Of a stretch of 21,464 nt of DNA, positions 3,651 through 21,464 are shown piece after piece. A program made the translations under genes and the position numbers. The stretch spans positions 1-21,464 of the IMG/VR virus record IMGVR_UViG_3300025132_000369; one strand, given 5' to 3'. Within the stretch, counting starts at the first letter, position 1; each line of letters opens with the position of its first letter. The notes beneath the pieces were generated by a model. The model was not told where the DNA came from. It ran no database searches and saw only the letters and a list, made by a program, of their open reading frames with translations. Source of the DNA: a virus.

Positions 3651-3654
3651 CTAA

Positions 3655-4143
3655 ATGTCTGATAAATGGAAAAAAGCTGCTCAACCTCCTCCTCCGATGT
3701 TTCTTGGAGAAAAAGAAAGAGATTTAGTTAAGCAAGTTAATGATGAAATCATTGAAAGAGTTATTGGACAACAAATTCTTTACTTCCCAATTGACATAGA
3801 TCATACAAATTATCATCCACTTTATGGAGAGGCTATAGAAAAAACATTCTTACCACCAGTTAGAGTATTTGCATTAGTAGAATATGGTGGAGAAGAAACA
3901 AGTTACCTTTCCAATATAGCTGTCGATGAAATGGAGAAAATAACTGTTAAATTTCATAGAAGAAGATTAACAGAAGATCAAGACTTAGAAGTCAAAGTTG
4001 GTGACTTTGTTAGATACGGCGATATTTACTATGAAATCATGAAAAAATCTGAACCCAAGCATTTGTTTGGACAACCAGAGCATGAATTTGAAACAATAGC
4101 AGAGTGTATAAGAGCAAGAGACGGATTATTCAATGCCAAATAA
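3655..4143 (+). CDS. Neck / head-tail connection protein, T4 gp14-like
   Basis: A 162-aa soluble protein with AGGA (3644-3647) upstream of its ATG, four bases after the previous stop. A helical N-terminus (FLGEKERDLVKQVNDEIIER) leads into QQILYFPIDIDHTNYHPLYGEA (residues about 39-60). It continues as beta-rich sequence with VKVGDFVRYGDIYYEIMK near 112-130. The pattern of helix, then a YYLP-like strand, then 'LYGEA' resembles gp14 neck proteins of T4-like cyanophages, though it is shorter than T4 gp14 (256 aa). The same pattern also suits head-closure proteins generally. The assignment rests largely on being between gp13-like and gp15-like genes. Its last codons overlap the next gene by 11 nt, indicating translational coupling. 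Confidence 0.5.
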   Translation: MSDKWKKAAQPPPPMFLGEKERDLVKQVNDEIIERVIGQQILYFPIDIDHTNYHPLYGEAIEKTFLPPVRVFALVEYGGEETSYLSNIAVDEMEKITVKFHRRRLTEDQDLEVKVGDFVRYGDIYYEIMKKSEPKHLFGQPEHEFETIAECIRARDGLFNAK

Positions 4144-4972: not shown

Positions 4973-4991
4973 GATTTTAGGTCAAAACAAT

Positions 4992-4999
4992 ACTATTTA
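4992..4999 (+). promoter_or_regulatory. Candidate late promoter box ACTATTTA, copy 5 (sheath)
   Basis: ACTATTTACTGTGAAT lies in the 60-nt gap before the sheath gene, with the octamer ending 33 nt before the ATG. AAAGGAGAG at 5017-5025 is a strong ribosome site, fitting high sheath expression. Confidence 0.5.
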
Positions 5000-5032
5000 C
5001 TGTGAATATTACATTTAAAGGAGAGTATTTTA

Positions 5033-7984
5033 ATGCCTAGAAAGTTTGATTTCGTTTCACCAGGAGTTCAGATCACAGAGATTGATCAAAGTAAAATTGA
5101 GACTCCACTGCAAGACGATGGTTTATTGGTTATCGGTCGAGCCACCACCGGCCCTGCTCTCAAGCCTGTTAAGATTAATAGCTTGGAGAACTTTATTGAT
5201 GTGTTTGGAAAACCAATTAGTGGTAAAGGCACAGTCAACGCTGATGTTTGGCGAGATGGTAACAACCAAGGGCCTACATATGCTATGTATGCCGCTCAAG
5301 CTTGGCTTGCTTCTAACACCTCTCCTGTGACTTTTATTCGCTTGTTGGGTGAAGATTCACCAAGTGCTTCCGGCATTAAAGCTGGTTGGGACATGGGTGG
5401 CGCCGCCATCAGCAGCACTCCATCGGCCAATAGAGTTGCTTATGGCTTGTTTATTTGCCCTTCTGCATCGGCTGGAACACTATTGAATGGTACATTGGCA
5501 GCGGTCTTTTATACATCCGGTTCGGCTTTAACTTTGAGTGGAACCGTTGCTGGCGGTAAATACCCATCGGCAGAAAAAGTAACATCTTCTGCTGGTATGT
5601 TCATCAAGTCAATAGCAACCGGCGGCAAACCTAGTACTTTTAAATTAGAGGTCTCTGATGGTGCTGCTCAAAATGGTGGAGTAGCATGGACACCAAAGTC
5701 TTTTATATTTCATTTTGACCCAGATGAAAAGACAAGTTATATTAGAAACATTGTAAATACAAATCCACAAAAACTTTTTGGAACAAACGTCCCATCGGCA
5801 CAACAAGAAAAATACTTTCTTGGAGAAACATATGAAGAAGCCGTTAATCGCATAATAACAAACACTGCTACTGCGGGTAATCAGTATGGAATTTTATTGC
5901 CCTTACAATCAGGTTCGGCAGCCGCTAATAGTTTGTTGTTTCATCAAGCACAAGCTACTACTTCAAAGACAGGTTGGGTAATTAATCGAAATCCAGACCC
6001 AATTAGCGGCAGAGCATCTTATCAAGCTGATAATATGAAAAAGCTTTTCCGTTTGGTTTCTTTAAGTGAAGGTGAATATTTTGAAAGAAATTATTATGTT
6101 TCGATTGAAGACATTCAACTTGGAACAGTTGCTAATCCAAATTCTTCTTTCACTGTCAAGATTCGAAACACTAACGATGATGTTGTAGAGCAATTCTCAA
6201 ACTTGAATCTTGATGAATCATCTGAAAACTTCATTGGAAAAAGAATTGGAGATATGTTCCAAACATGGGATTCCAATAAGAAACGATATGAATTGTATGG
6301 AGAATACACAAATCAGTCAAATTATGTCCGTGTAGAGATGGCCGATGATTGGAAGAATAGCGGTGTTGATGATGTTTACATGCTTCCGTTTGGCTTCTTT
6401 GGGCCTGTTCAGCCAAAAGGCTTTATGGTGGTTTCTGGTAGCTCAACCGCTAAACCAATTCAAACCCCTTCTGGTGATTTCGTCGCTGCCGCTGGTACAA
6501 TAAATACCTATGCTAGAGGAAATCTCAGTGCAATAACTTATGGTAATACAACCACAGAACACTTCGTTATGTTTCCATGGGCTGGCTCGGCTGCAAATGC
6601 ATTGACACAAAGAATAACTGCTTCTTTGACATTCCCAAGATTAAAGCTCACAGAAAACAATACAGCGAAATCAGGTACAAACTATAATGCAAAAGATTTG
6701 TTTGGCTTGAATCACAAATTCGCTGGTAAAAATTCACGACATGTTTTGAGCGATAGAAGTTATATTGATTTACTTCGATACCAAGGCGGTGGAATCGACT
6801 TACATTCCGCGACTCATGCTACACAATATTCTTTTGTATTCTCATTAGACGATGTTAGAGAAGCAAGTGGCAAGTGGTATTGGCAATCAGGATCTATGAA
6901 AGCTGGTACTTCTTTTGCCTCAACACAAGGAACCCTAGGGTTGCTAACAAGCAGTGTAAAACAGTTTGCTCTTCCATTGTTTGGAGGTTTTGATGGTGTT
7001 GATGTAACTCAAATCGATCCTTTCTCAAGCAAAAATGTATTAGACAACTATGCTGAGACCACACACTATGCAAACTATTCGGTTCAAAAAGCAATCGACT
7101 CTATCTCAGATAGTGAAGTTGTCGCATATGATGTTGTTTCAATGCCGGGTTTAACAAACACTGGATTATCAAACAATTTAATAAATGCTGTGGAAGACCG
7201 TGGTGATGCTTTGGCAATTATTGATTTAGATGATCAATACAAAGAGACATACGAAAATTCTGGCACTAGAACTGGTGGTAGTATTGATGATGTTAAAGCA
7301 ACCGCTAGAACTAGAGACCTCAATACAAGCTACGCCGCCGCTTATTACCCAAGAGTCAGATTAAGAGATACTCTCTCAGGTAATGGAGATGTGTTTATTG
7401 CTCCATCTTCTGTTGCTGCGATCGGTGCTTTGGCACATTCGGATGCTAATTCTGATGGTCCATGGTTTGCACCAGCGGGCTTCAATCGAGGTGGTATTTC
7501 AATCCTTGGTGGTAACCAAGGTCCACGTGTTGCTGGTACTTGGAAAAATCTTCCAAAATCAGATCGTGATGAATTGTATGAATTAAACATCAATCCAATC
7601 GCAAGATTCCCAGCAGTTGGAGAGATTGTAATCTTTGGACAAAAAACTCTTCAACAAACACCATCGGCTTTAGATAGAATTAATGTTAGAAGATTGATGG
7701 TCTATCTCAAGAAAAGAATTGGTAATATTGCTGATACTCTTTTGTTTGACCAGAATGTTGAAGCAACATGGTCTCGATTTAAGTCACGTGCAGATTTGGT
7801 TCTCTCTGATGTACAGGCGAGATTAGGTATATCTGAATACAAACTTGTTTTGGATACTACAACAACAACACCAGACTTAGTTGATCAAAATATCATGTAT
7901 GCTAAGATTTTTGTGAAGCCAGCAAGAGCAATAGAATTTATTGCTATTGACTTCATTATCACAAAAACAGGTGTTGAATTCTAG
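5033..7984 (+). CDS. gp18: Tail sheath protein, T4 gp18-like (enlarged)
   Basis: A 983-aa contractile tail sheath subunit. The N-terminus has the family hallmark FVSPGVQITEID (residues 7-18) and the following GLLVIGRATTGPALKPVKI strand pair. The C-terminal domain contains LFGGFDGVDV (about 649-658), GEIVIFGQKTL (863-873), INVRRLMVYLKKRI, the WSRFKSRADLVLSDVQARLGI helix region and KPARAIEFIAIDF (about 961-973). These are the conserved core that forms the interlocked sheath lattice. T4 gp18 has 659 residues, so about 300 extra residues sit between roughly 115 and 640, probably as surface-exposed domains on the outside of the tail. Promoter box and strong ribosome site precede it; the tube gene follows 40 nt later. 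Identification is secure. Confidence 0.95.
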   Translation: MPRKFDFVSPGVQITEIDQSKIETPLQDDGLLVIGRATTGPALKPVKINSLENFIDVFGKPISGKGTVNADVWRDGNNQGPTYAMYAAQAWLASNTSPVTFIRLLGEDSPSASGIKAGWDMGGAAISSTPSANRVAYGLFICPSASAGTLLNGTLAAVFYTSGSALTLSGTVAGGKYPSAEKVTSSAGMFIKSIATGGKPSTFKLEVSDGAAQNGGVAWTPKSFIFHFDPDEKTSYIRNIVNTNPQKLFGTNVPSAQQEKYFLGETYEEAVNRIITNTATAGNQYGILLPLQSGSAAANSLLFHQAQATTSKTGWVINRNPDPISGRASYQADNMKKLFRLVSLSEGEYFERNYYVSIEDIQLGTVANPNSSFTVKIRNTNDDVVEQFSNLNLDESSENFIGKRIGDMFQTWDSNKKRYELYGEYTNQSNYVRVEMADDWKNSGVDDVYMLPFGFFGPVQPKGFMVVSGSSTAKPIQTPSGDFVAAAGTINTYARGNLSAITYGNTTTEHFVMFPWAGSAANALTQRITASLTFPRLKLTENNTAKSGTNYNAKDLFGLNHKFAGKNSRHVLSDRSYIDLLRYQGGGIDLHSATHATQYSFVFSLDDVREASGKWYWQSGSMKAGTSFASTQGTLGLLTSSVKQFALPLFGGFDGVDVTQIDPFSSKNVLDNYAETTHYANYSVQKAIDSISDSEVVAYDVVSMPGLTNTGLSNNLINAVEDRGDALAIIDLDDQYKETYENSGTRTGGSIDDVKATARTRDLNTSYAAAYYPRVRLRDTLSGNGDVFIAPSSVAAIGALAHSDANSDGPWFAPAGFNRGGISILGGNQGPRVAGTWKNLPKSDRDELYELNINPIARFPAVGEIVIFGQKTLQQTPSALDRINVRRLMVYLKKRIGNIADTLLFDQNVEATWSRFKSRADLVLSDVQARLGISEYKLVLDTTTTTPDLVDQNIMYAKIFVKPARAIEFIAIDFIITKTGVEF

Positions 7985-7991
7985 AGCGAAC

Positions 7992-7999
7992 ACTATTTA
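7992..7999 (+). promoter_or_regulatory. Candidate late promoter box ACTATTTA, copy 6 (tube)
   Basis: ACTATTTAAATTATAT occupies the 40-nt gap between sheath and tube genes, ending 25 nt before the ATG at 8025. AAGGAG at 8009-8014 is the ribosome site. Confidence 0.45.
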
Positions 8000-8024
8000 A
8001 ATTATATTAAGGAGAAAACAAGTA

Positions 8025-8615
8025 ATGGCAGTTTTTTGGAGTGCGAACAATTCAGAGGCAAAAAGAAATTATAGATTTAAAGTCACAATGGAACCTTTTG
8101 GTGCCAACAATGTGGTTTGGTGGGCTAAAACAGTCACTTTGCCTTCATATGAAGTTTCAGAAGTTGAACACAATCATATGGACAATAAGTATTATTTCCC
8201 TGGTCGAGTTTCTTGGTCAACTGTAGCAATGACCCTTGTTGATCCTATCAGCCCTGATGCAACAGATATATTAAACAATATGCTTGAACAAACTGGTTAC
8301 AAAGTACCAGCTACTTCGGCAGCAGCTAATGCTAAAGGTTTTCTTTCTAGAAAAAAAGCAGCTAACTTGGGTACATGTAAGATAGAAGTGCTTAATGACG
8401 AAGGAGTTTCTGTTGAGACTTGGGAATTACAAAATACTTTTATTCAAGCCGCTACATTCGGTTCTTTAGATTATTCAAATGATGATTTAAAAGAGCTTGA
8501 ATTGACACTTAGATATGACTATGCTACTTGTGAAACCCTAACTGGTGGAGCGGTACGTTTTGAAAAATCCTCTTCTGGCGCCCCTCCTTCTGGGGCTCCT
8601 CCTACGACCACTTAA
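8025..8615 (+). CDS. gp19: Tail tube protein, T4 gp19-like
   Basis: A 196-aa inner-tube subunit. Recognisable tube features are FWSANNSEAKRNYRFKV (residues 4-20), VVWWAKTVTLPSYEV (30-44), the YYFPGRVSWSTVAMTLVDP segment (56-74), and the C-terminal strands ETWELQNTFIQAATFGSLDY (131-150) ending in LTLRYDYA (160-167). T4 gp19 has 163 residues; the extra length is mainly a linker at about 92-116 and a flexible C-terminal tail with a GAPPSGAPP repeat. Hexamers stack inside the sheath to form the DNA conduit. The start has AAGGAG upstream. It is followed after 25 nt by a paralog. Identification is firm from sequence and from adjacency to the sheath. Confidence 0.92.
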   Translation: MAVFWSANNSEAKRNYRFKVTMEPFGANNVVWWAKTVTLPSYEVSEVEHNHMDNKYYFPGRVSWSTVAMTLVDPISPDATDILNNMLEQTGYKVPATSAAANAKGFLSRKKAANLGTCKIEVLNDEGVSVETWELQNTFIQAATFGSLDYSNDDLKELELTLRYDYATCETLTGGAVRFEKSSSGAPPSGAPPTTT

Positions 8616-8640
8616 TATTAAAATTATTTAGGAGTGCTAA

Positions 8641-9339
8641 ATGTCTTTTTGGAGTGACAAAAGCATAAGCCCAGCAAGAAAATATAGATTCAAAGTGAGC
8701 CCCGCTGGCAAAGACTGGTGGTATGTGAACAGTGTTAATCTTCCTTCGTTTGAAGTGAATACTGGGGAGTACCAACTATTAAATCAAAAGTTTAAATATC
8801 CTGGCATTCCAACTTGGCAAGATGTGGTGATTGATCTTGTTGATGTAGGTTCTGCATTTAACGAGATTAAAACTTATTTAGCTTCCCAAGGATTTACTTC
8901 TCATCAAACACACGGACTTGCAAAAGGAATGTCTATCTCCGTTAGGCAGACGATAGCCACTCAAGGCTCTGGATCCACTACTACCGCTAATCCAAAAGTA
9001 GAACAAAAAAAAGCCCAAAACAACGGCGAAGAACAAAATTCAGAAAACTCTTGGTGGTCCGGTGCCAGTTCGTGGTGGAAAAAAGATAAAGACTTGAAAG
9101 AAGAGGAAAAAAAGCGAACACCAAATGAAGCTGCTGAAAAAGCTAAACAAGGCGTCACACAAGATGATGGTAATGATATGGTTATACAACAAATGACCGA
9201 AGACGGAAAGACCCTCAGAACTTGGACTCTTAGGAATTCTTTTATTAAAGCAGTTAATTATGGTGAGTTAGATTACAGTAGCGATGATTTACTTACAATG
9301 AAGATAACGATTGGCTATGATTATGCCACAGTATCATAA
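8641..9339 (+). CDS. gp19: Second tail tube protein (gp19 paralog) with inserted charged linker
   Basis: A 232-aa paralog of the preceding gene, with TTTAGGAG upstream. Matching blocks are SFWSDKSISPARKYRFKVS (2-20), WWYVNSVNLPSFEV (26-39), FKYPGIPTWQDVVIDLVDVG (51-70), TWTLRNSFIKAVNYGELDYS (194-213) and ITIGYDYATVS (222-232). Between them, at about 108-178, lies a low-complexity insertion rich in Gln, Asn, Glu, Lys and two WW pairs (138-139, 145-146). Proteins with this fold can act as main tube, as tube terminator, or as baseplate tube initiator (gp54/gp48 share the fold). Lower conservation and the insertion suggest a specialised ring rather than the bulk tube, but this is inference. It precedes the gp26-like gene with a 19-nt gap. 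Confidence 0.85.
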   Translation: MSFWSDKSISPARKYRFKVSPAGKDWWYVNSVNLPSFEVNTGEYQLLNQKFKYPGIPTWQDVVIDLVDVGSAFNEIKTYLASQGFTSHQTHGLAKGMSISVRQTIATQGSGSTTTANPKVEQKKAQNNGEEQNSENSWWSGASSWWKKDKDLKEEEKKRTPNEAAEKAKQGVTQDDGNDMVIQQMTEDGKTLRTWTLRNSFIKAVNYGELDYSSDDLLTMKITIGYDYATVS

Positions 9340-9358: not shown

Positions 9359-10207
9359 TTGAGTAGAAATAATACGGAACGAATGGGTGCAGTTCCTCAA
9401 GCCGAAGCCCCAAGCCCAACAACAAACAATCAAGATCCTATGCACTTTGTTGCACCAACGGAATTTGTTGACTTGCCCTCAAAGGGACTTGGATATGGCG
9501 ACAACCACCCAATGCGAGGCAAGGATACTATTGAAATTAGATTTATGACAGCGAAAGATGAAGATATTCTAACTTCTAAAACCCTTTTGAAAAAAGGTTT
9601 AGCACTTGAGAGGTTTTTAGACAATATTATTGTTGATAAAAATATTAAAGCTTCTTCATTGTTGGTTGGTGATAGAAATGCTATTATTATAGCTGCCCGA
9701 ATATCAGGATATGGTCCACAATATACTACAAAAGTGACATGCCCAGCCTGTACGGAAACATCAGATTGTAATTTTGATCTTAACAAAGTTGTTGTCAATT
9801 ATTCAGAAGTTGATGAAAAACTTGGTCTCTCACAAGATGAAAAAGGCAACTTTGCTGTTACAATGCCATTATCTAAATTTGAAGTTTCTTTTCGTCTTTT
9901 AACAGGTAAGGACGAATTGTACCTATCCCAGCTATCAACAAATAAAGCTAAAGGGAAAATGCTTGAAAGCGGTTTAACAGATCAGTATAAACGAATGATT
10001 GTTTCCGTTCAAGGGCACGAAAACCAACAAATTATTGATAAATTTGTTGATAATATGCCAACGAGAGACTCCAGATTTTTAAGAACCTGTTATAAAGCAG
10101 CCAACCCAGATATCAAAGTAATTGATGACTATTCTTGCAACGCGTGCGGTTTTGAGCAAGAATTGGAGGTGCCCTTTGGGGCTGACTTTTTTTGGCCTGA
10201 CCGATAA
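9359..10207 (+). CDS. gp26: Baseplate hub / tail assembly protein, T4 gp26-like, with zinc ribbon
   Basis: A 282-aa protein beginning at a TTG codon: AGAGGTG (9348-9354) lies 4 nt upstream, while the first in-frame ATG (9383) is too far from it. Motifs are FVAPTEFVDLPSKGLGY (30-46), LVGDRNAIIIAARISGYGP (102-120), CPAC (128-131), CNAC (260-263) and the C-terminal VPFGADFFWP (271-280). The PTE..LPSKG..Y and GDR..I...R.S.YG patterns are those of gp26-type baseplate proteins of T4-like phages. The paired CxxC motifs suggest a bound zinc. T4 gp26 is 208 aa. It lies where many phages place the tail assembly chaperone, just before the tape measure. Its last 32 nt overlap another frame (see the 67-aa gene at 10176), so an extended product is possible. 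Confidence 0.75.
   Translation: MSRNNTERMGAVPQAEAPSPTTNNQDPMHFVAPTEFVDLPSKGLGYGDNHPMRGKDTIEIRFMTAKDEDILTSKTLLKKGLALERFLDNIIVDKNIKASSLLVGDRNAIIIAARISGYGPQYTTKVTCPACTETSDCNFDLNKVVVNYSEVDEKLGLSQDEKGNFAVTMPLSKFEVSFRLLTGKDELYLSQLSTNKAKGKMLESGLTDQYKRMIVSVQGHENQQIIDKFVDNMPTRDSRFLRTCYKAANPDIKVIDDYSCNACGFEQELEVPFGADFFWPDR
10165..10170 (+). promoter_or_regulatory. Internal Shine-Dalgarno for the overlapping small gene
   Basis: GGAGGT inside the end of the gp26-like gene sits exactly 5 nt before a TTG codon (10176) that opens the overlapping frame. Strength and spacing are optimal, which favours independent initiation over frameshifting for the small protein. Confidence 0.6.
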
Positions 10208-10796: not shown

Positions 10797-13190
10797 ATGG
10801 CTGAAGAAAAGACACCATTAACACCAGAAGAAATAGAGCAAATTACTAAACAATATGAAGAACTTAAAAAGCTTGATATTGCCCAACAAGATGCTACTAA
10901 ATCTGCTATTGAACTCGCTGCCGCCGAAGCCAAATTCGCTGAAAAACAGAGAGATGTTATTGCTGCCTTGGATTCTCATAGAACCGTACTATCACAGTTT
11001 AAGAATTTAAATGAAAAGATTGCCAATATCAAAGAAAAAGATGACGAAGAAACAAAAAAACAAATAGCGAATTTAAAAGAACAGGCACTCGCTTTAAAAG
11101 ATGCAGCAGCGGAAGCTGATGAGTATGTTAATAAAATAGAAAAACTCGGCCCGGGCTATGAAAATGCCCTTCGAAATGCTGGTCCTATGTTTGAGGACAT
11201 TGCCACAACAATGGGTCTTGCATCAAAAAAAGGTAATGAACTTGCTGAAAGCATCGGCAGCATAGCATTCCAGAAAGGTGGTATTCGCGGCCTTGGAAAA
11301 GTGTTTGTTTCAAATTTCTTAAATCCGGTTTCTATAGGTATTTCTTTGCTAACTAAACTGGTAGAACAAACAATTTCTCAAGCTTTCGCTGTAGATAAAG
11401 CAGGTGCAGCATATACAAAAGCCACTGGAATGTCTCGACAATATGATGGAATGATAAACCAAATATCACAGAGTCAAAGGGAATTTGGAATTGAAGCCGA
11501 ACAAGTTCAAAAATCATTGGTCTCTTTAAGTACCACATTGTCTCAATTTAATGATCTACCTAAAGAAACCGCACGAAACTTAGTAAAAGTAGTTTCTCAA
11601 CTCGAAGGTATTGGTGTCGCTGCTGAAGATTCTGTTCAAATGATAACCAAATTAAACAAAGCATTTGGAACCTCAGAAGACGTTGCTGCAAATTTAACAA
11701 AAGAAATGGCATTATCAGGTGAAGCCATTGGCATGTCTTCTCAGCAAATCGTAAGAGAATTTAACTCGGCTTTGGGTACTCTTGCTATTTATGGACCAAG
11801 GTCAACTAAAATATTCAAAGATATTGCAACAATGGCAAAAGCTGCTGGTGTTGAGGTTAATGATATGTTGGGGATAGCAAACCAATTTGATACTTTCTCT
11901 TCATCGGCCAAAACAGCAGCCAAGATGAATGCTATATTGGGAACAAGCTTCTCTGGTGTAAATCTAATGATGATGGATCATGATGAGAAACTCAGACATA
12001 TTATCGGAGGTATGCAAAGATCAGGTGTTGCATTTAAAAATCTTGATAAATTTACACAACAAGCAGTTGCAGCCCAACTGGGTATTAAAGATATGGGAAA
12101 AGCTAACCAAATGCTTGGAATGACTTTGGGTGAATATGATAGGATGAAATCAAAACAACAAGCAGTCAATAAAACACAAGAAGAATTAGAAAAGAGATTG
12201 AAAGCGACATTACCTGCAATGCAAAGAATGGAATTAGCTTTTAAAGAATTTGCTATTTCTATGGAACCATTGATACCGACTTTTATTAAAATAATTGAAT
12301 TTTTAGCTGGTGTTGCAAAATATGCAGCAGACAACCCTTGGAAGTCTTTGGCTATGGGTGTCGGTGCTTTTATGTTAAAAGCAAAATTTGCAGCGGCTGC
12401 ACAAGCTAAGGCTTTAGTCGCCGTTGGTCAGGGTGCCGGTGGTGCAGCCCCCGGTGTTTCAAAATTAGCAACCGCATCTAAAGGACTTTTGATAGGTTTT
12501 GTCCCAGCAACCCTTGCAATTGCTGGTCTAATTTATGCTCTGTCTAATTTTATGAAAGTGATGTTTGATAGTATTATTATTATGAAAATGTACGGTGTAG
12601 GATGGAAAGATATAGCTAAGGGCCTTGGGACTTTCGCTGCTTCTATAGTCGTTCTTACTGGTGTTTTGTGGGCTTTGGACAAAGTTGCTACCAAGCTAGC
12701 TAGAAATCCGCTCGGAATGGCTATAACAGGTATCGTCGCCGCCACTGCTGGTCTGGCAATGGGTATTGGTGCCTCTGGTTCGGCCCCAGTAGGTCCCGAA
12801 TTAGATACCAATATGTTAATGGAAAATGCAGATGCTATTGATGGTTTGGCAACAAGAATGCAATCTCTGGTAAAATCTAAAGGAAATATAAAAGCAACTT
12901 TTGCTGCGATTGGTGAAGGCTTAGAACAAAGTAAAGAAGCTCTTAATGCTGACATACAATCGACTATAGCAAACATCGCATTAATAACAACTGGCAAAGC
13001 CGCAGGTGATATGAATATGACTGTAAGTGCACTTGCTTTATCAACAAATGAATTGATTGATACTATAGGTACTTATCTTGGTGCAACAAACGACAAAGAA
13101 AAGGTCACCTATCTAAAATTAGACAAGAAAGAGACAGCTAAACTCTGGAAAGGCGAAAAAGCCAAAGCAGAACAATCAAGTGATCGTTAG
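10797..13190 (+). CDS. Tail tape measure protein (functional counterpart of T4 gp29)
   Basis: A 797-aa protein, the usual layout of a tape measure. It has a charged coiled-coil N-terminus (about 10-120, EEIEQITKQYEELKKL...) and a central alpha-helical domain (about 200-450). That domain has alternating Ala, Lys and Gln stretches and ITKLNKAFGTSEDVAANLTKEMA-type segments as in TMP domains. The second half has hydrophobic segments at about 563-590 (IGFVPATLAIAGLIYAL), 612-628 (AASIVVLTGVLWALD) and 641-661 (MAITGIVAATAGLAMGIGA). These stretches may insert into the host membrane on DNA delivery. T4 gp29 has 590 residues. At the customary 1.5 angstrom per residue, 797 residues imply a tail near 120 nm. 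Upstream is GAGGGA; the gene is followed 12 nt later by a baseplate gene. No lytic peptidase domain is visible. Confidence 0.85.
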   Translation: MAEEKTPLTPEEIEQITKQYEELKKLDIAQQDATKSAIELAAAEAKFAEKQRDVIAALDSHRTVLSQFKNLNEKIANIKEKDDEETKKQIANLKEQALALKDAAAEADEYVNKIEKLGPGYENALRNAGPMFEDIATTMGLASKKGNELAESIGSIAFQKGGIRGLGKVFVSNFLNPVSIGISLLTKLVEQTISQAFAVDKAGAAYTKATGMSRQYDGMINQISQSQREFGIEAEQVQKSLVSLSTTLSQFNDLPKETARNLVKVVSQLEGIGVAAEDSVQMITKLNKAFGTSEDVAANLTKEMALSGEAIGMSSQQIVREFNSALGTLAIYGPRSTKIFKDIATMAKAAGVEVNDMLGIANQFDTFSSSAKTAAKMNAILGTSFSGVNLMMMDHDEKLRHIIGGMQRSGVAFKNLDKFTQQAVAAQLGIKDMGKANQMLGMTLGEYDRMKSKQQAVNKTQEELEKRLKATLPAMQRMELAFKEFAISMEPLIPTFIKIIEFLAGVAKYAADNPWKSLAMGVGAFMLKAKFAAAAQAKALVAVGQGAGGAAPGVSKLATASKGLLIGFVPATLAIAGLIYALSNFMKVMFDSIIIMKMYGVGWKDIAKGLGTFAASIVVLTGVLWALDKVATKLARNPLGMAITGIVAATAGLAMGIGASGSAPVGPELDTNMLMENADAIDGLATRMQSLVKSKGNIKATFAAIGEGLEQSKEALNADIQSTIANIALITTGKAAGDMNMTVSALALSTNELIDTIGTYLGATNDKEKVTYLKLDKKETAKLWKGEKAKAEQSSDR

Positions 13191-13202: not shown

Positions 13203-13847
13203 ATGTCAGTATCATCATTTTATCAACCAGAAATAATAGATTTAGCAGACCAAAAAGGTGCCAAATTATCAATAAAAAGCATGTTGACAGGTAAGATCTT
13301 AGAATTCCCAGCGTTTATAAAATCCTTTAGTCAAAGTTTTTCATCAACATGGAGTGAAGAGCAAGTTTATGGTCGAATGGATCCAATTGCTACTTTTCAA
13401 AACACTAAAAGAACAATTGCTTTATCTTTTGACTTGCCCGCACAAAATATAAGCACAGCCCAACTACACTTGTCTCAATGCGACGAGCTAGCTCAGTTTT
13501 TATATCCCGGTTATATAGATCAAACATCTAAAGGATCTAATACTCCTGATGGCAGAGTTATATCACGTCCCCCTTTGGTTTCTATTAAATATGCAAATTT
13601 AATTTCTACAGGCAAAGGTGGAAGACAATTAGGGTGGCTTTCTGGTTTAGAATGGGTGCCAGCTTTGGATATGGGTATGTTTGTTGATGGTAAAAATTTA
13701 TATCCAAAAGTAATCTCGTTATCGTTTACTTTTAATGTCTTACATCAAAGCGATAAAGGCTTTGGCAAAAAAGATAAAAAAAGCACCGGCAATGATTGGT
13801 TGAGCGAAGATTTCTTTGGTGGCTCTGTAACATCCACTAAAAAATAA
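13203..13847 (+). CDS. Baseplate tube cap / tube initiator-like protein (gp48/gp54-type)
   Basis: A 214-aa protein with TAGAGGA just upstream of its ATG, immediately after the tape measure. Notable blocks are FSQSFSSTWSEEQVYGRMDP (residues 42-61) followed by IATFQNTKRTIALSFDLPA (62-80), then LAQFLYPGY (96-104), RPPLVSIKYANLI (122-134), LGWLSGLEWVPALDMGMFV (143-161) and LYPKVISLSFTFNVLH (166-181). The order of beta strands recalls the tube-like fold shared by gp19, gp48 and gp54. The 'VYGRMDPI..F..TKR' block is, as I recall it, frequent in environmental myovirus baseplate proteins. In T4, genes 48 and 54 follow gene 29, which matches this position. Assignment to 48 versus 54 cannot be made by eye. 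The last 28 residues are charged and flexible. Confidence 0.6.
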   Translation: MSVSSFYQPEIIDLADQKGAKLSIKSMLTGKILEFPAFIKSFSQSFSSTWSEEQVYGRMDPIATFQNTKRTIALSFDLPAQNISTAQLHLSQCDELAQFLYPGYIDQTSKGSNTPDGRVISRPPLVSIKYANLISTGKGGRQLGWLSGLEWVPALDMGMFVDGKNLYPKVISLSFTFNVLHQSDKGFGKKDKKSTGNDWLSEDFFGGSVTSTKK

Positions 13848-13862: not shown

Positions 13863-14195
13863 ATGTCAAGATATAATAAAAGAACAAGAGCTATAAATGC
13901 AAACGATCAATATAAGAACATTTTTGATAAAAAAGGTGTTCAAAGGATTGAGCAATATAGAACTCTATCAAAAAGAGTCTATGAGGATCAAATTTATGAT
14001 TCAATTGAGACTATAAATTATACTTGGAAATATGGTGATATGTATTGGCGCCTGTCTTCAAGGTATTACGGAGACCCAAAATATTGGTGGGTTATTGCTT
14101 CTTTTAATAAAAAGCCAACTGAGTCTCTTAATAAATTAGGAGATATTATTAAAATACCTATTAATTTGGCCGAGGCTTTACAGGTGGTAGAATAA
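13863..14195 (+). CDS. gp53: LysM-like baseplate protein (T4 gp53 / P2 gpX type)
   Basis: A 110-aa protein whose second half is LysM-like: YTWKYGDMYWRLSSRYYGDPKYWWVIASFN (about 53-82), then LNKLGDIIKIP (90-100). The 'GD..W.L...YYG...YWW.IA..N....L..GD.I.IP' arrangement is the hallmark of the LysM-type baseplate proteins gp53 (T4) and gpX (P2). These link wedge and hub near the tube. T4 gp53 has 196 residues; this version has a shorter N-terminal part, basic and probably extended (MSRYNKRTRAINAND). The ribosome site is weak (AAGAG at 13854-13858). Its stop codon TAA shares one base with the next ATG, pointing to coupled translation with the giant protein. Confidence 0.72.
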   Translation: MSRYNKRTRAINANDQYKNIFDKKGVQRIEQYRTLSKRVYEDQIYDSIETINYTWKYGDMYWRLSSRYYGDPKYWWVIASFNKKPTESLNKLGDIIKIPINLAEALQVVE

Positions 14196-17100
14196 TGAGC
14201 GATTTTCAGTCAACTTTTTTTAGTGGCTTTCACCAATGGCTAGAGGCGGGTATAACAGATTTTAGTCTTACTCAATTTTGGTGGGATATCCCTGGTAGTG
14301 TGGGATCAGCAAGAAAGAAAACTCAAGCAAAGCAGATTTCAGACCGCTCACCGGACAGTGACGGAGACGATAATGAAGAAGTTATAAGAGAAGGACCAGA
14401 GCTTCTTTACGATTTGACTGTGGGACATCCCGACTACCCTGGCTCACTTACTGCTGTTTTTGCGTTGCTCGGCCAGGGTAAGAGATATATTGGAATGTCA
14501 ACTAGTGCCCCCTCCGGTTACACATTCAATGGCGGTGATTACTACCAGAATATTTATGGGTCTTTCGGTGGTCGTCAATTTAGTGCCTATCTTCTTAATC
14601 AAGAAAGCTCTTGGGCAACCTTTTTTAATGATCCGTACTTTGTAAAGCTTTTATTGCAATCAACAACTGGAGATTATATTAAAGATGGGGTTGTGAAAAG
14701 TGGTTACTACATAAAGGACGGCGATACCCACAAAAAATGGTGGACCGACGATGAAGGTGGTGCAAAATATCCAGATGGTGACCTGTTCAAAGGTCTCCAT
14801 GAAGAATTAGAATTGTTAAAAAATGGCTTGGACAGTAGTAGCGGCCTCATGAATCAAAATGCGACGATGCGCAATTATGCATTGAAAGGTGCATATCTTT
14901 CGAGCCCGGTTGGTACTATGTTCGATGAAACATACGGTACAGGGATAGATAGGGTATATCGCCACCGAATCCACCCAGCCATAGTTGGAGGTAGAGAGAA
15001 GAACCTAATTGAAGCATTTAGAGAGCACTTGGAGGGGAAAGGTTCCCCTCGTAACTGGACAGAAGACGAAGTGGATTTGTTTTATTTGTGGTCTGGTGGA
15101 GACAAGTATGGGTCGAATACTGTACCATACCTTAATGTTCTCGCCGCAGCCGAATCGGCAACGAACTCAAACTCCTCTATATACCGATACATCACTACAA
15201 AAACAAGAAATTTCTGGAAGGAAAATTATTCTAAAGCCAATGCCCAAGCTCTCGTTGGAACAAAGGCATATGATGTTTTGACAGATTTTTTAGGAGAAGA
15301 GCCAACTCCAGAATTATTTGCCAAACATGTTACACATGGAATCGCCGCCACTGATGGTCTTATAGCAGAACTAAAAGGCACCGCTGCTGATAATTCTTCC
15401 GGCATTGAAGGTTATATTTCGCGAGCAAAAGCAATGGGTGTATCAGGCGACATGACAACTATTAAGGCAACACCGTTTACTATGACAGGTTTTGTTAAAA
15501 ATGTTGGTCTTTTTTATCCAAAAATCCCCACAGGAAAATATGGGCCCTATTATAATACAAGTGATCGATTCAATGCCACGGTCTTTCAAAAAGACTCTGA
15601 TTTAAATTTTCAACATGGTTGGCTTGGTCGATACGGTGGGGCTGCCAATGATAGGGTAGAATTCCAACCCCTGGCTAAAGAAATTGCTCTCGGTAAAGCA
15701 GTAAAGGGTATTAGTCGGGAATGGTGGCCGGAGGAATCATCTTACCAAGGCAAAACAACTGGAATACCGGGACTACGACCAGCAACCGCTGGAGAACAAG
15801 TTGCAGAACCCAATGGCATCGGCACGTTTGGTCGCCGGATTAGTCAAGGCGACACCAACCCAGCAGTTCCAGCCGATCAAACCTTTGATTTCTCCGACGA
15901 AATGCCAGTTTCTTCACAGCAAATATACGATTACGAATTTAAAGGTGGGGCTATCGAACCATTCAGGATCAACAGTGGTGATACTATCTACACATATTCA
16001 ACTCTAGACGATGATGCAGTGGAACAATTGAGCACAGCGATGAAAAATAAGATTTCTAATCTCCTCAGTGGTCGAAGTATTGAAATTGTATATCCAGAAA
16101 AATTCAAGACACCGTTCATTCCTTTAATTGAAGCCGCCGCAATGGTAAATCAGGAGTATACTTATCTCATGGACCCCGATGATGGGAGATTGGTACAATA
16201 TCAAAAACAAGTGGAAGTAGTCGCTTCCTCTGGTGTTCTTCCAGCCGGAACCCAAGCAGAATCATACGGTGCCTCTGAATTTACCATTTTTCCATATGCA
16301 AACGATTCGAATTTAAATCTAGTGAACTATGGGACAATAACAGTCGATGGTGTGGAATGGCAAGATGCTGGCGATATAGCATCAGTTTTGCAAGATACAG
16401 ACAATGACGGCTATGTCGATGGGTTCTACAATGACCTTCGTCAATGGGTTCCTACTGATACCTATGGTAACCCAGTCGATCCAACTCAGGGGAGGACTGG
16501 TGTTCCGGGTTTGGGTAGCTTCGGCGGTATCAGCGGGATAGATGCCAATGGCGATGGCGTTTTCGATGTGCTTGATGACCTCACCGGCACCTACCGCCCC
16601 ATTCCTGTTTTCACTGGTGCAGAAATTCCACCCCAAAGGCTCCCACAGGGTAAAGTTGGTCGCGGCCTCGCGGTTCAAATGTGGATTGATGCTGTTAATG
16701 TGGCCTCTTCCAAACTAGCTCAGTGGATGGTCTATGCTAATGCAACAATTGATATCACAGCTAGATATTTTTCAGTTGTTAGTTTAGCAGCATCCAATTA
16801 TAAAAAGGATCAAATTGCCGAGATATTTGCCGATGCGGGAATTGAAAAAGGCAAGCCAAACCCTAAACTTGGCAGTGGCTTAATTGTTGATTTAAAAGAT
16901 GATCCAGAACCGGATAAAAAATTAACTAAACAACAAATAAAAGAAATTTTAGAACAAAGAACTAAAAATATAGATCAATGTTTATTGTTAACAAATATGG
17001 ACTTCTTAAGACAAGAATACGATGGTTGGATACAATATTGTCTTACACATGATGGCTCCTACGGATGGTCTGAACATGCCTGGAATCACATGCATAGTGA

Positions 17101-19663
17101 TGATTTTGGCCGCCCTTGTGCCTTTGGGGATAGATTTCACCGAATAACAGATTCAGAAGGGCAATATAATAAAACACCAAATTATTTTGGTGCAGCCAAA
17201 GGCGATCGTATAAGGCCCTTTTTTGAGATAACACCAGAAATCATGTCTTCTCTTACACCCAAGATTAGATTATTTAGGATATCAAATAATCCAGATGGCT
17301 CAGAAAAAGAAATAGAATTTACATTTGAAAATTACATTTCACAGGAAACAGTTAGCAGTTTAAACAATCCGCAATCTATTCAAAAAGGAACAGGCGGTGG
17401 AATAAAAAACTTTTCTTTTACATATGAGGGAGGATCACCAGCAACAGCCACAAAAGATATCAATGCAGAACTTACTTTGTTTTTTCAATCATTTAATGAA
17501 TTAACAAAATTTAGAACATCAGGAAATAAAGAACGATATAAATATATTGATTTGTTGTTGTATCCTTCAAACAGAAAAAATACCAGCAATGGGAAAACCG
17601 AAGCCGAATCAAAAAATATACATCCTAATGAATATAATCCAACGAATTTTAGAATAAGAGCAGAAGTGGGTTGGAATATTAGAAACGACCAGTCTTTTAG
17701 GGATATGCTTTATAGTCGATTGTCGGATGATGAACATAGAAGATATGAGGTGAGTGCTAAAGCTGATCCAAGAAAAGTAGCAAAACAGATGTCTGTTACT
17801 GAAATTATTAAACATGATGTTTTGAAAGACTTCAATAATGCAATTAGAATGACAAATAAAACATTTCTTTTAAACATGGTTGATCACGATATTGATTTTA
17901 GAAATGATGGATCCGTTGAATTAAAAATTCAATATGCTGCTTATATGGATTCTAGAACAAGAGGTAGTGATGTAAATGCACTCTCCACACCACAGATAGA
18001 AGCCTATAAAGGCTATTTGCGAAATAAAATAGCCGAAAAACAAAAAGAACAGTCATGTACTTTACGTCAGCTTCAATCTTTAAACAGTTCTGTTATGACT
18101 GCCGAGGAAATATATGTTAAAGCTGCCCAAGGGTCTCTTGTTAAGAGATTGTTGCATAGAAAATTAAAGAGAAGTGTTGTCTTCAGTAAAGCACAGACAA
18201 CAAATTATTCAAAAAGATATTCCACCGCTGCCCCGGCACCAATTCGTCCTTACATTAATGCCCGCGCGATGAACAATGAAGAACTGGAAGTTGAATTTTA
18301 CTTTTTAGGAGATATATTACACACGGTTTTAGATTGTCTCTATTTGCCGCCCGGAGAATTCAATCCAGATAATGCTGCTTATGACCCACGAAATGATGAA
18401 ATTACTAAATTTTCCAAAAGAAGAAAAGACATGCAAAACTACAAGATATTATTATCTACTTTTACATATACAGATCACACTACAAATTTTGCAGGTGCTA
18501 GAAAAGACCCATATTTTGTAGCAAATATAGCAGACATGCCTATATCGGCAAAATATTTAAATGATTGGCTTGTTGAGAATGTGACAAAACCAGAGAGAGT
18601 CGTGTATCCTGTTACAGATTTTGTCAAAGATTTGTTGAGATCAGTGGTTGATTTGTTGACAGATGCATGTCTTAATAGAAGAATGCAGCCTTCTCTTATG
18701 TTTCAAACTGGTCAGTTTATGGGAATTGGTGGAGAAAAAGAAGGACTTGCAAGACTTATTGAAAAAGGAGAAGGGTTTGTCAAAGGAGTTCTCAATAAGG
18801 CCCAAGCTGATCTTACGACTAGTCTGGATTGGGCTCTTGGCCGAAGGACTTCATTGGGAAGTTCTGGAACTGAACAGTCTGCCACAGAAAACCGTGCGGT
18901 AGCGAGAGGATATCCTGACCCCTTGAGTCTCGTTGGACTTTCGAATGAAAGCCTAAATCAACCAATTGCTGCTAATTTATGGCACCACAGGGGTATTTTG
19001 CCTTTAAGATCATTTGATCCATCGTTCGACGGGATTATTCCAACTGAAAGCCTTTATAAATACACGCTAATATATCCAGTTGCACCAGTTATGTCTGTCT
19101 CGCATAAAGGAGAGGGTGTAAGACATCTAGATGAAGAAAGAGGTACATATCATTTTCAAATAGGATCCAACAGAGGGTTGTTGAAAAATGTAAAATTCAA
19201 CAAAACAGATATGGCTTATTTAAGAGAGGCAAGGTTCTATAATCAAGGTAATTACGGCTTGTTGCAACTTGGTGCTGTCTATAATGTTGAATTAGAATTG
19301 TTTGGTAATACTTTGTTTTATCCCGGTATGGAGATATTTATCGACCCACGTGGCTTCGGAGGTACTGACTGGGATCCAACATCCACAAGGACAGTTGCAA
19401 ATGCACTTGGAATTGGTGGATATCATATTATAACAAAGGTCACTTCAGAAATCGCCCCAGATGGTTTTTCTACTTCAATAAGTGCTCTATGGCAGCATAG
19501 TGGTGCTCCTAGTGATAGAGCTAATTCTATCAATGGTAATACTTCCAATGAACCCGTTGCAGCACCAATCGAACAAGCTGGGCCTAATGAGCGGGAAAAT
19601 CGAAAATGTGAAGAACTGTTGGATCAAATATTATCAAATAATTTAAGATCATACAGGGACTAA
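14195..19663 (+). CDS. Giant virion protein, probable composite baseplate hub protein
   Basis: An 1822-aa protein, by far the largest here. Residues 1 to about 850 are not recognised. They are Gly-, Tyr- and Trp-rich and encoded by unusually GC-rich DNA (55-58% in sampled lines near 16,500). They carry two calcium-loop motifs, DTDNDGYVD (734-742) and DANGDGVFD (783-791), as in EF-hand/dockerin-type loops. From about 900 the DNA becomes AT-rich (about 20% GC in sampled lines) and the protein looks like a baseplate component. It has repeated strand-rich segments, a helical region (about 1280-1350), and a C-terminal domain with YPVAPVMSVSHKGEG, PGMEIFIDPRGFGG (near 1709) and GIGGYHIITKVTSEIAPDGF (near 1739). 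The last resembles the end of gp27/gpD-type hub proteins. No peptidase or lysozyme active site is seen. A hub or tail-spike role is inferred from position after the LysM-like protein. Similar giants may be annotated VrlC-like in T4-type cyanophages. Confidence 0.6.
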   Translation: MSDFQSTFFSGFHQWLEAGITDFSLTQFWWDIPGSVGSARKKTQAKQISDRSPDSDGDDNEEVIREGPELLYDLTVGHPDYPGSLTAVFALLGQGKRYIGMSTSAPSGYTFNGGDYYQNIYGSFGGRQFSAYLLNQESSWATFFNDPYFVKLLLQSTTGDYIKDGVVKSGYYIKDGDTHKKWWTDDEGGAKYPDGDLFKGLHEELELLKNGLDSSSGLMNQNATMRNYALKGAYLSSPVGTMFDETYGTGIDRVYRHRIHPAIVGGREKNLIEAFREHLEGKGSPRNWTEDEVDLFYLWSGGDKYGSNTVPYLNVLAAAESATNSNSSIYRYITTKTRNFWKENYSKANAQALVGTKAYDVLTDFLGEEPTPELFAKHVTHGIAATDGLIAELKGTAADNSSGIEGYISRAKAMGVSGDMTTIKATPFTMTGFVKNVGLFYPKIPTGKYGPYYNTSDRFNATVFQKDSDLNFQHGWLGRYGGAANDRVEFQPLAKEIALGKAVKGISREWWPEESSYQGKTTGIPGLRPATAGEQVAEPNGIGTFGRRISQGDTNPAVPADQTFDFSDEMPVSSQQIYDYEFKGGAIEPFRINSGDTIYTYSTLDDDAVEQLSTAMKNKISNLLSGRSIEIVYPEKFKTPFIPLIEAAAMVNQEYTYLMDPDDGRLVQYQKQVEVVASSGVLPAGTQAESYGASEFTIFPYANDSNLNLVNYGTITVDGVEWQDAGDIASVLQDTDNDGYVDGFYNDLRQWVPTDTYGNPVDPTQGRTGVPGLGSFGGISGIDANGDGVFDVLDDLTGTYRPIPVFTGAEIPPQRLPQGKVGRGLAVQMWIDAVNVASSKLAQWMVYANATIDITARYFSVVSLAASNYKKDQIAEIFADAGIEKGKPNPKLGSGLIVDLKDDPEPDKKLTKQQIKEILEQRTKNIDQCLLLTNMDFLRQEYDGWIQYCLTHDGSYGWSEHAWNHMHSDDFGRPCAFGDRFHRITDSEGQYNKTPNYFGAAKGDRIRPFFEITPEIMSSLTPKIRLFRISNNPDGSEKEIEFTFENYISQETVSSLNNPQSIQKGTGGGIKNFSFTYEGGSPATATKDINAELTLFFQSFNELTKFRTSGNKERYKYIDLLLYPSNRKNTSNGKTEAESKNIHPNEYNPTNFRIRAEVGWNIRNDQSFRDMLYSRLSDDEHRRYEVSAKADPRKVAKQMSVTEIIKHDVLKDFNNAIRMTNKTFLLNMVDHDIDFRNDGSVELKIQYAAYMDSRTRGSDVNALSTPQIEAYKGYLRNKIAEKQKEQSCTLRQLQSLNSSVMTAEEIYVKAAQGSLVKRLLHRKLKRSVVFSKAQTTNYSKRYSTAAPAPIRPYINARAMNNEELEVEFYFLGDILHTVLDCLYLPPGEFNPDNAAYDPRNDEITKFSKRRKDMQNYKILLSTFTYTDHTTNFAGARKDPYFVANIADMPISAKYLNDWLVENVTKPERVVYPVTDFVKDLLRSVVDLLTDACLNRRMQPSLMFQTGQFMGIGGEKEGLARLIEKGEGFVKGVLNKAQADLTTSLDWALGRRTSLGSSGTEQSATENRAVARGYPDPLSLVGLSNESLNQPIAANLWHHRGILPLRSFDPSFDGIIPTESLYKYTLIYPVAPVMSVSHKGEGVRHLDEERGTYHFQIGSNRGLLKNVKFNKTDMAYLREARFYNQGNYGLLQLGAVYNVELELFGNTLFYPGMEIFIDPRGFGGTDWDPTSTRTVANALGIGGYHIITKVTSEIAPDGFSTSISALWQHSGAPSDRANSINGNTSNEPVAAPIEQAGPNERENRKCEELLDQILSNNLRSYRD

Positions 19664-19678
19664 TAGGGACAAACAATA

Positions 19679-21010
19679 ATGACAAAATTCAAAGCATCAA
19701 ACGATATGGGATCTCCGCGAACTGTTTTTTATTATAGGGCCCTTTATGATCAAGAGGCTCTTAGCAGTGTAACAGGAGGCCCCAGACCAGAAATAAGAGA
19801 TTTTTCTTTTGCTGAAAATGTATTATATGGCCGAGTGGACACTCGTTTAAACACCGTTTATCCTGATGAAAGTACATTAAAAGTTATTTCATCTGAAACA
19901 GAAAGAGAAAATTCCTATCGTTTATTAAACTTTGCTGCTGATGCTTTTGAGGCTATTAGAGCTAAAATGTATCAAGCTAGAGATATTGGAGTGATTCCTG
20001 ATGATGATCAAATTTTCTCAACTTTTAAAATAAAAAAAGCTTACGAATCACCAGTCAGCTTGTACAACAAATATATTGATGATTTGATGGAAGACTATAT
20101 TATGAATTATTTGGCTATTGCTGGTCATAAACAAAAAGTTTTTAATTTAGAACATTTTATAAATGAATTTATAATATTCTTAAATAACAAAGCCCAACAC
20201 ACACCGTTTACTTTTACATCGTGGCAGAGATCAACTACATCAAATATTTTTACATCTGGAATAGCAGTTACTTTAGCAAATATGAGATTTGGAGAGGACC
20301 CGACAATAGAACAAAGAATTCTAAAAAGCAAAGCATTTAGATATTATTTAAATGTTTGTAGGCAAAATGGCTTTTTAGTGTCCGAAAAATCTCCTTTCAT
20401 GTTGGTTGCTGATATAATGTCACCGGGTTTATTACAGTATTCTAAAAATAGCTCTATTTTTACAATAGAAGAGGTATTCTTAAGTTGTTACAACTATGCT
20501 TATATGGTAGATTACGACATATTGTTTACAAAAATGTTTGATGGATATAATCTATTTGCCGCTCGATTCCCACAGGAGAGAATAGTTAGCAAAAAATGCC
20601 ATAGAAGTTATTCAACATTTTTTAGAACACCGCTTACACAGCAACAAATAAAAAGTAAATATTCTACTCCATTTTGGCTTGCAAAATATTCAACGATAAG
20701 AAATATTGAAGAAAATGGTGTTCTAAGTGGCAATATCTTTAAAAAAATGCAAAAGAAAATAAAATTATCAAATCATCTTGACAAAGAAGCTTCTATGAGA
20801 TATATTAATAGTACTTTTCGTGAAACCTATAAATCAAAATATGGTGGTACAAATTATTTTGTTAAGAGAAAGGCTACAAGAAACAATGGACAAGAATCTT
20901 CAATTGTGTCAACAACGGGCGCCACAAAAATTGAAAATGAAATCACTTCACCAAATGATTTCACAACAAACATTCTCCCAAGCAGCGGAGGATCAAGCGG
21001 GGGGTATTAA
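19679..21010 (+). CDS. Unknown virion-associated protein, 443 aa
   Basis: A 443-aa protein with AGGGA (19665-19669) 9 nt before the ATG. I do not recognise a family. The body is rich in Tyr, Phe, Ile and Asn. Aromatic segments include RTVFYYRALYDQEAL (14-28), YNKYIDDLMEDYIMNYLAIAG (about 128-148), and YLNVCRQNGFLVSEKSPFMLVAD near 226-248. The last 45 residues are low in hydrophobics and end in SSGGSSGGY, a flexible tail. No signal peptide, membrane helix, zinc ligands or enzyme motif is evident. It follows the giant hub-like protein, with only 15 nt between them, so it is probably made with it. A structural or assembly role in the baseplate is a reasonable guess, not a demonstrated function. 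Confidence 0.85.
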   Translation: MTKFKASNDMGSPRTVFYYRALYDQEALSSVTGGPRPEIRDFSFAENVLYGRVDTRLNTVYPDESTLKVISSETERENSYRLLNFAADAFEAIRAKMYQARDIGVIPDDDQIFSTFKIKKAYESPVSLYNKYIDDLMEDYIMNYLAIAGHKQKVFNLEHFINEFIIFLNNKAQHTPFTFTSWQRSTTSNIFTSGIAVTLANMRFGEDPTIEQRILKSKAFRYYLNVCRQNGFLVSEKSPFMLVADIMSPGLLQYSKNSSIFTIEEVFLSCYNYAYMVDYDILFTKMFDGYNLFAARFPQERIVSKKCHRSYSTFFRTPLTQQQIKSKYSTPFWLAKYSTIRNIEENGVLSGNIFKKMQKKIKLSNHLDKEASMRYINSTFRETYKSKYGGTNYFVKRKATRNNGQESSIVSTTGATKIENEITSPNDFTTNILPSSGGSSGGY

Positions 21011-21464
21011 TGACATTTCAAATTCTTGATGACAGGAGAGAGTGCTATGGAATCTATTATAACGGAAGCTTTATTTACGACAATTTCCCAAGCAACCTTG
21101 ATCGGACTTGGGAGTGGTGTCCTCATCTTCTTGGTCGGAACATCGATTATGGCTCTATCTTTTGCGGTGGTCGAGAGATTGGTAAAGTCGGCCCCGTCCA
21201 CCTTCAAGACCGGTATGAAGTCTATTCTCGCAAGATTCGGAGCTTTTTAAGAGCAACAACAAATGCTAAGATAAAGTTTGATGATGTTTGCTTGTTCGAG
21301 ATTGTCCCTCAACAGCACCTCCGACATTATTGTGAGATCAAGAATGATATAACCAATTGGGTATTCGAGAATCATGAGAAACCACAGAACCATCAGCACA
21401 TGGTAGATGTAATGGAGTTGTGCGATGATATTTCACAAAAAATCCCCGTAATCGACCTAAATCG
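21010..21464 (+). CDS. Unknown phage protein, incomplete at the window's right edge
   Basis: The frame opens at ATG 21010, sharing the last A of the preceding TAA stop, and stays open for 151 codons to the window end. A G-run (20998-21004) upstream may serve as the ribosome site. The product is polar and aromatic, with a Cys- and His-containing character: DDRRECYGIYYNGSFIYDNFP (7-27), TWEWCPHLLGRNIDYGSIFCGGREIGKVGP (33-62), then helical KIRSFLRATTNAKIKFDDVCLFEIVPQQHLRHY. Cys at 12, 37, 52, 94, 108 and 138 and several His are present but do not form a clear zinc motif. I do not recognise the family. A second frame inside it encodes a small membrane protein (21047-21250). Confidence 0.78.
   Translation, partial: MTFQILDDRRECYGIYYNGSFIYDNFPSNLDRTWEWCPHLLGRNIDYGSIFCGGREIGKVGPVHLQDRYEVYSRKIRSFLRATTNAKIKFDDVCLFEIVPQQHLRHYCEIKNDITNWVFENHEKPQNHQHMVDVMELCDDISQKIPVIDLN
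21034..21040 (+). promoter_or_regulatory. Ribosome site for the nested small membrane protein gene
   Basis: AGGAGAG lies 6 nt before ATG 21047, inside the coding sequence of the overlapping partial gene. It is a better ribosome site than the one available to the host frame. Confidence 0.5.
21047..21250 (+). CDS. Nested small single-pass membrane protein (67 aa), candidate
   Basis: A 67-aa frame wholly inside the partial gene starting at 21010, shifted by +1. ATG 21047 is chosen over the in-frame TTG 21026 because AGGAGAG precedes it by 6 nt. The protein has an N-terminal amphipathic stretch (MESIITEALFTTIS), one long hydrophobic segment (residues about 17-42, ATLIGLGSGVLIFLVGTSIM...) and a basic C-terminus (KSAPSTFKTGMKSILARFGAF). 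Such a topology is seen in holin- or spanin-like and other small phage membrane proteins, but nothing specific identifies it. A minus-strand frame is also open here, so the locally higher GC content may produce open frames by chance; hence moderate confidence. Confidence 0.5.
   Translation: MESIITEALFTTISQATLIGLGSGVLIFLVGTSIMALSFAVVERLVKSAPSTFKTGMKSILARFGAF

Follow-up and report, generated by a model that had tools for sequence, protein, structure and literature searches.

The 21,464-base IMG/VR record analysed here (the window, probably a fragment) encodes on its plus strand, at 14195–19663, a baseplate hub protein of 1822 aa with a long N-terminal arm. In the reading that we regard as probable, this is the hub of a contractile tail, bearing an arm that is exchanged as a unit and meets a variable partner, with the step in base composition inside the gene marking the junction of arm and hub. 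Syntenic homologues occur at about 55 distinct IMG/VR loci, and they show a large group of uncultured myophages in which the hub is kept while the attached arm is swapped and lengthened.

The gene is a single uninterrupted frame of 1822 codons, the ATG of which overlaps the stop codon of the LysM-like gene preceding it. The arm, comprising residues 1–905 (14195–16909; all coordinates given here refer to the plus strand), has a GC content of 43.7% as compared with 36.2% for the remainder of the protein, and among 2.7-kb stretches elsewhere in the window, where the maximum is 40.4%, none reaches the level of the arm. An earlier sequence-only reading of this DNA had described the gene as a mosaic of a GC-rich and an AT-rich half, and its hand counts are exact (58.3% at 16501, 55.0% at 16561, 18.3% at 16921, and 23.3% at both 17461 and 17521). 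The sliding GC and codon analysis which it had proposed finds the step as well, the best single change point by maximum likelihood being codon 846 (nt ∼16733), slightly 5' of the range of 16740–16920 in which the change had been placed; permuted blocks of 10, 20, and 40 codons equalled the likelihood of this change point 0, 0, and 1 times in 2000, which upholds the change itself. The GC content of the arm is higher at all three codon positions, with a GC3 of 0.35 vs 0.25 in the hub, a difference that is moderately unusual by itself (76 of 1822 shifts as large in a circular-shift test). The arm is also richer than the hub in glycine (10.7% vs 6.5%) and aspartate (7.7% vs 5.9%), and since GC is raised at all codon positions, this G/D-rich amino-acid make-up can be only part of the cause.

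The C-terminal part, residues 906–1822 (16910–19663), is by its predicted fold and by gene order a baseplate hub of the gp27/GpD/VgrG type. The fold, which in such hubs consists of paired beta-barrel domains, was obtained from an AlphaFold model built from 16 relatives. This model is of moderate confidence (pLDDT 65, pTM 0.67), and tail hubs or spikes account for almost all of its top Foldseek matches in the PDB. The best of these is the P1 baseplate (9vzk, E 2.7e-3), with all PDB E-values lying above 1e-3; further matches are VgrG (2p5z), Mu gp44 (1wru), pyocin R2 (6u5h), and diffocin, with T4 gp27 (1k28) found lower in the list. Among the viral models of BFVD, the core matched a baseplate protein of SP-15 (1.5e-5), a phage protein D (3.5e-5), the VH7D baseplate hub (2.3e-4), and the late control protein D of LE3 (6.8e-4), along with large unnamed relatives with E-values down to 1e-39. 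At the level of sequence, the hub core gave no Pfam, PHROG, or PDB match above curated cut-offs, and solved hubs themselves share little sequence, at 4–13% pairwise (PMC3004832). The fold matches, together with the fixed gene order, bear out the earlier suggestion that the second half of the protein is a baseplate hub. Structure prediction of the two halves, also suggested at that time, thus delivered a hub fold for one of them, while the arm model, made from 5 sequences, is poor (pLDDT 40).

In every locus inspected, the genes follow the order of sheath, tubes, phrog_150 protein, long coiled gene, 13203-type gene, LysM gene, and hub, and on the 3' side of the hub, likewise in fixed order, a 19679-type gene and a polymerase-like gene. 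In the window, the genes at 5033–9339 comprise the tail sheath (5033–7984; phrog_23, E 8.5e-57) and two tail tube-like genes (8025–8615 and 8641–9339), the former of which matches phrog_4542 (E 9.8e-24) and the latter of which was assigned through the similarity of its relatives to the first. They are followed by a baseplate hub assembly-type protein (9359–10207; phrog_150 baseplate hub, E 1.8e-16) and by a tape measure candidate (10797–13190), for which the PHROG search gave no match and which was named by its position, length, and synteny. The 214-aa product of 13203–13847 is by synteny a candidate for a baseplate or tube-junction protein; its identity dips, being variable in some sister pairs, and a Flavobacterium phage encodes a homologue of it (E 2.6e-8). 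A LysM-like, gp53-type baseplate wedge protein (13863–14195; phrog_7145 baseplate wedge subunit, E 5.6e-9) lies directly 5' of the hub gene and adjoins it in every locus inspected, and a syntenic gene for a 443-aa protein with neither PHROG nor Pfam match (19679–21010) is the last ahead of the replication genes. Within the 21,464 nt of the window, no gp5-like gene was identified, and the window holds no RNA families or tRNAs.

The arm itself consists of a body (residues 1–700), an insert (residues 701–815; 16295–16639), and a helical base (residues 816–905; 16640–16909). The insert, of about 115 aa, is absent from all homologues and with its GC content of 49.0% gives rise to the GC peak near 16500, the surrounding arm being milder at 43.1%; it may have been gained recently, unlike the arm as a whole. 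It carries two acidic DxDxDG loops (DTDNDGYVDGF and DANGDGVFDVLDD), which by their sequence look like those of calcium-binding repeats, and its Pfam matches to TSP3/EF-hand families are all sub-threshold. The base, delimited from the model helix, the change point, and profile comparisons, leads into the hub; it corresponds to helix 6–52 of the core model and contains the change point at nt 16733. Pfam, PHROG, and PDB searches gave no family match for any of 47 arms, and no receptor-binding, adhesin, fibre, lectin, or enzyme fold was seen in them, which counts against the host contact proposed below. On the hub side, a loop of low alignment occupancy at residues ∼1510–1600 (18722–18994, GC 46.5%) is expanded only in the window protein. 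The milder GC-rich patch that had been pointed out at 18780–18960 is real (48.6% GC), but it belongs to this variable loop and is not a second module.

The relatives were collected with a C-terminal segment alignment of two rows, which led to 16 contigs, and with the profile made from these, which led to 64 loci in IMG/VR and, after removal of copies, to the about 55 distinct hub proteins. All relatives sharing the hub are metagenomic contigs; searches with the whole protein or the first two-row alignment, and of isolate phages and GTDB genomes, returned no relatives or only the contig L004, and none of the isolates in the collection searched carries the giant protein. A hub of ∼800–1030 aa is common to all relatives, while the arm ranges from 26 aa in L084 to 926 aa in L027. 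Shorter versions lacking the N-terminal part, for which the sequence-only reading had recommended a search, are therefore found: L084, the most distant relative in the set, has a complete hub gene of 876 aa with neither an arm nor an extra neighbouring gene, and others have far shorter arms. In L048, an additional ORF of 156 aa (6681–7148) located between the LysM gene and a hub with a short arm of 260 aa was considered as a split-off arm and was rejected, as it matches no other arm.

The window protein falls with those of L004, L006, L009, and L010 into a clade with a support of 100, which L027 joins at 98. Within this clade of five, the arms are homologous to that of the window at 20–26% identity, L027 being the exception; for the window and L004, the hubs are 52% identical and the arms 26%, the latter being homologous and full-length. 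A profile of the clade arms detected no arm outside the clade (E > 0.18), and in profile–profile comparison with hhalign the links between arms of different groups lie almost only in the base helix. Judged by these sequence comparisons, the arms of different groups appear mostly to be without detectable homology, although the alignments are small and homology may have been lost by divergence. When arm-type proteins were sought elsewhere, including in viral contigs, only the same phages were found, and no donor.

Pairs of sister phages indicate how such differences arise. In L034/L035, the arms have a synonymous divergence (pS) of 0.613, as compared with 0.088 for the hubs. Per block of 100 codons, the hubs of this pair are 92–99% identical and the arms 64–76%, and the 1500 bases 5' of the hub gene are 97.5% identical; identity falls at the start codon of the hub gene and recovers near the arm–hub junction. 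The arm also exceeds the hub in L082/L050 (pS of 0.825 vs 0.473) and in L052/L055 (0.715 vs 0.351), the arms of both pairs having ∼30% protein identity, while the relation is reversed in L072/L073, where the arms are almost identical (pS 0.013) and the hubs differ more (0.136). Synonymous change differing about tenfold within one gene is impossible by divergence in place, and the arms in these sister pairs have therefore been replaced by recombination, that is, by allelic replacement. Any one metagenomic pair may suffer from local misassembly, but this is unlikely to be a common cause, because the four clearest pairs agree and come from different samples. More broadly, of the 65 pairs for which at least six genes could be compared, 59 have their least conserved tail segment in the arm, which has a median identity of 0.28 as against 0.67 for the hub. 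The claim of a two-part protein joined near residues 850–910 is supported, and in the relatives the arm moves independently of the hub. An apparent incongruence of the arm and core trees for L040/L060 was discarded, since the topology is not significant (AU p 0.11 on the core) and one and the same group order is compatible with either tree; the two differ in distance, in that the arm reaches z 30–50 to the far group and ∼5 to the near group, while the cores are 45% and 74% identical to these groups, respectively.

As to what the GC step records, the sequence-only reading had taken it for the trace of an acquisition, in which a foreign GC-rich module was recently fused to an older hub gene in the window phage. 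The sharp step does sit at a module junction, and an arm-less relative exists in L084. However, L084 is the most distant relative, no arm donor was found among the viral contigs, and above all the step recurs with homologous arms in L004 (arm 43.9%, hub 36.4%) and, in the same direction but less pronounced, in L006, L009, and L010. With the homologous arm and the step being shared by the clade, the arm must predate the splits of L004, L006, L009, and L010, which refutes such a fusion for the arm as a whole and makes it highly improbable as an explanation of the step. The step is also present in L027, with its change point at codon 920 and the arm ending at 926, and a high GC3 persists in the clade although the proteins have diverged to ∼25% identity. 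Full-length relatives with the same shift across all hosts would, as had been stated, speak for selection on codons rather than fusion. Inside the clade, such relatives exist and count against fusion; most groups outside of it show a weak step, none at all, or one of opposite sign (down to −0.056), and therefore it is no universal codon pattern. A step of this kind is rather to be expected where a module with an evolution and recombination of its own meets its hub, and it shows that a jump in GC within a gene may delimit two modules and yet not be the date stamp of a recent fusion.

It could also be argued that the arm is an ancient, weakly constrained N-terminal extension which has grown by insertions and drifted past recognition with no replacement at all, the GC step then reflecting relaxed codon choice and inserted, exposed segments rich in G, D, and T. 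The homology of the window-clade arms along their full length would fit this, as would the nature of the GC-rich stretches, which are the insertions at 701–815 and 1510–1600 and the variable part of the sheath. Longer arms are, moreover, richer in GC relative to their own hub (Spearman 0.74, raw), a link that is modest after correction for kinship by independent contrasts (r 0.41, p 0.02–0.04) and is not robust once the clade and L027 are left out (p about 0.1). The window has no relative close enough to reveal replacement within its own clade, and the divergence between the window and L004 arms could be obtained in this way alone. What drift in place does not account for is a synonymous divergence of the arm that in sister phages is several-fold above that of the hub, or ten times below it, and as a general explanation it thus appears unlikely, though it retains some weight. 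Mutation of the arm by a diversity-generating retroelement, which the hypervariability of a part of a tail protein might bring to mind, seems very unlikely, as the substitutions in L063/L064 are of all types, affect all three codon positions, and are not adenine-specific, and as the changes extend along the whole arm and include indels and synonymous change; nor did such an element come to notice in passing. In that pair dN/dS is 0.73 in the arm and 0.13 in the hub, so that protein change is high relative to silent change where the arms are young, with dN/dS not exceeding 1.

In the model which we favor, exchange of an arm on a kept hub, the last ∼900 residues form a gp27/GpD-like central hub of the contractile tail, and the first ∼905 constitute an arm lying outside the conserved hub and starting from its helical base. 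Three such arms would extend outward from a trimeric hub and, while the phage penetrates, make contact with a variable partner, possibly a receptor in the envelope or cytoplasmic membrane or an exclusion protein of the host. An arms race with this partner would lead to relaxed or diversifying protein change and to replacement of the whole arm by recombination among related phages, and since the arm evolves and recombines apart and has a codon and amino-acid make-up of its own, base composition shifts at the junction. The arm of the window itself would have been replaced in the same manner, would be displayed in three copies, and would contact the host. Contact parts commonly undergo replacement along with rapid protein change, for which reason host contact is favored here, and the arm is plausibly a host-facing part in an unexpected place. 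For T4 gp27, contact with a cytoplasmic-membrane receptor has been suggested, not demonstrated (PMC3004832). The main rival to host contact is that the arm is an internal structural part, e.g. a scaffold binding the proteins of the tape measure, wedge, or tube junction, and owes its variation to that of these partners. This has a modest chance of being correct, for the arms are long enough to reach the wedges, and the tape-measure-like and 13203-type genes dip sharply in identity in the same sister pairs; simple covariation with the 13203-type protein is, however, not observed, since this protein is 71% identical in L072/L073, where the arms are nearly identical, and 98% identical in L034/L035, where the arms are 68% identical. 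As a more tentative extension of host contact, the exchangeable arm may, along with variable tape measure and tube-junction parts, be a second, inner determinant of host range, which would act via a cytoplasmic-membrane receptor or through escape from superinfection exclusion.

The second sharp dips in identity are located at 3401–3800 in L034, 3001–3400 in L082, 5401–6000 in L052, and 2801–3200 in L072. They fall within or close to the tape-measure-like gene and the 13203-type gene, and other pieces of the inner tail may thus be exchanged as well.

With respect to known systems, the protein resembles the hubs T4 gp27, P2 GpD, Mu gp44, and VgrG in its predicted fold and in its place beside a LysM gp53-like gene, from which likeness a role as a trimeric continuation of the tube would be expected, and it has no match to them at the sequence level. 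Known hubs have ∼320–430 aa, whereas the hub part here has ∼800–1030 aa and is preceded by an arm of up to 926 aa, and the central hub is usually the most conserved core of contractile tails. The known fusions of effector domains to VgrG are C-terminal (PMC3004832). In the Flavobacterium phage vB_FspM_immuto, which also carries the homologue of the 13203 gene mentioned above (E 2.6e-8), immuto26A_238 (938 aa) takes the place of the hub behind a LysM gene that is homologous to that of the window (E 1.4e-9); it differs in that its extra domain is C-terminal and peptidase-like, the protein being annotated as a carboxypeptidase. Homology of the hub core to the genes at the same place in Microcystis and Flavobacterium phages is not significant; the immuto gene at the hub position (L085 16555–19371) shows a hub-like motif near residues 682–706. 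Searches for variable parts of phage tails usually turn to the fibres, and in tail-fibre adhesins alleles with high protein divergence are exchanged between near-identical flanks. The allele exchange seen here is alike, but it affects the N-terminus of the central hub and not a fibre tip. The hypervariable regions of cyanomyophages include variable tail and baseplate genes, their diversity being attributed in part to allelic exchange, and experimental mutations were not concentrated in these regions; a variable hub arm is not described in that study (PMC6224464), and the literature search on variable hub arms found nothing.

Several minor observations concern the genes around the hub. The sheath gene contains a shorter GC-rich patch, with 47% GC over the 600 bases from 5101 (5101–5700), which lies in a part of the protein that differs between the window and L004, and GC-rich stretches seem to mark variable segments of the window genome. 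The start of the polymerase-like gene (21001–21464) is 90–98% identical in DNA to 17415–17789 of L004, while the two contigs are 46–85% identical over the remainder. This would reflect either that the segment is strongly conserved or that it was recently exchanged, the breakpoint then lying near 21000. Directly after the apparent end of a capsid gene (1–142), three tandem paralogues of 157, 151, and 160 aa (261–1901), which are 49–59% identical and begin with MSK/R-x-ARSARVASRQRPE, are candidates for capsid decoration proteins. Finally, L049 has two adjacent homologues of the 13203-type gene (3297–5133), where other loci have one.
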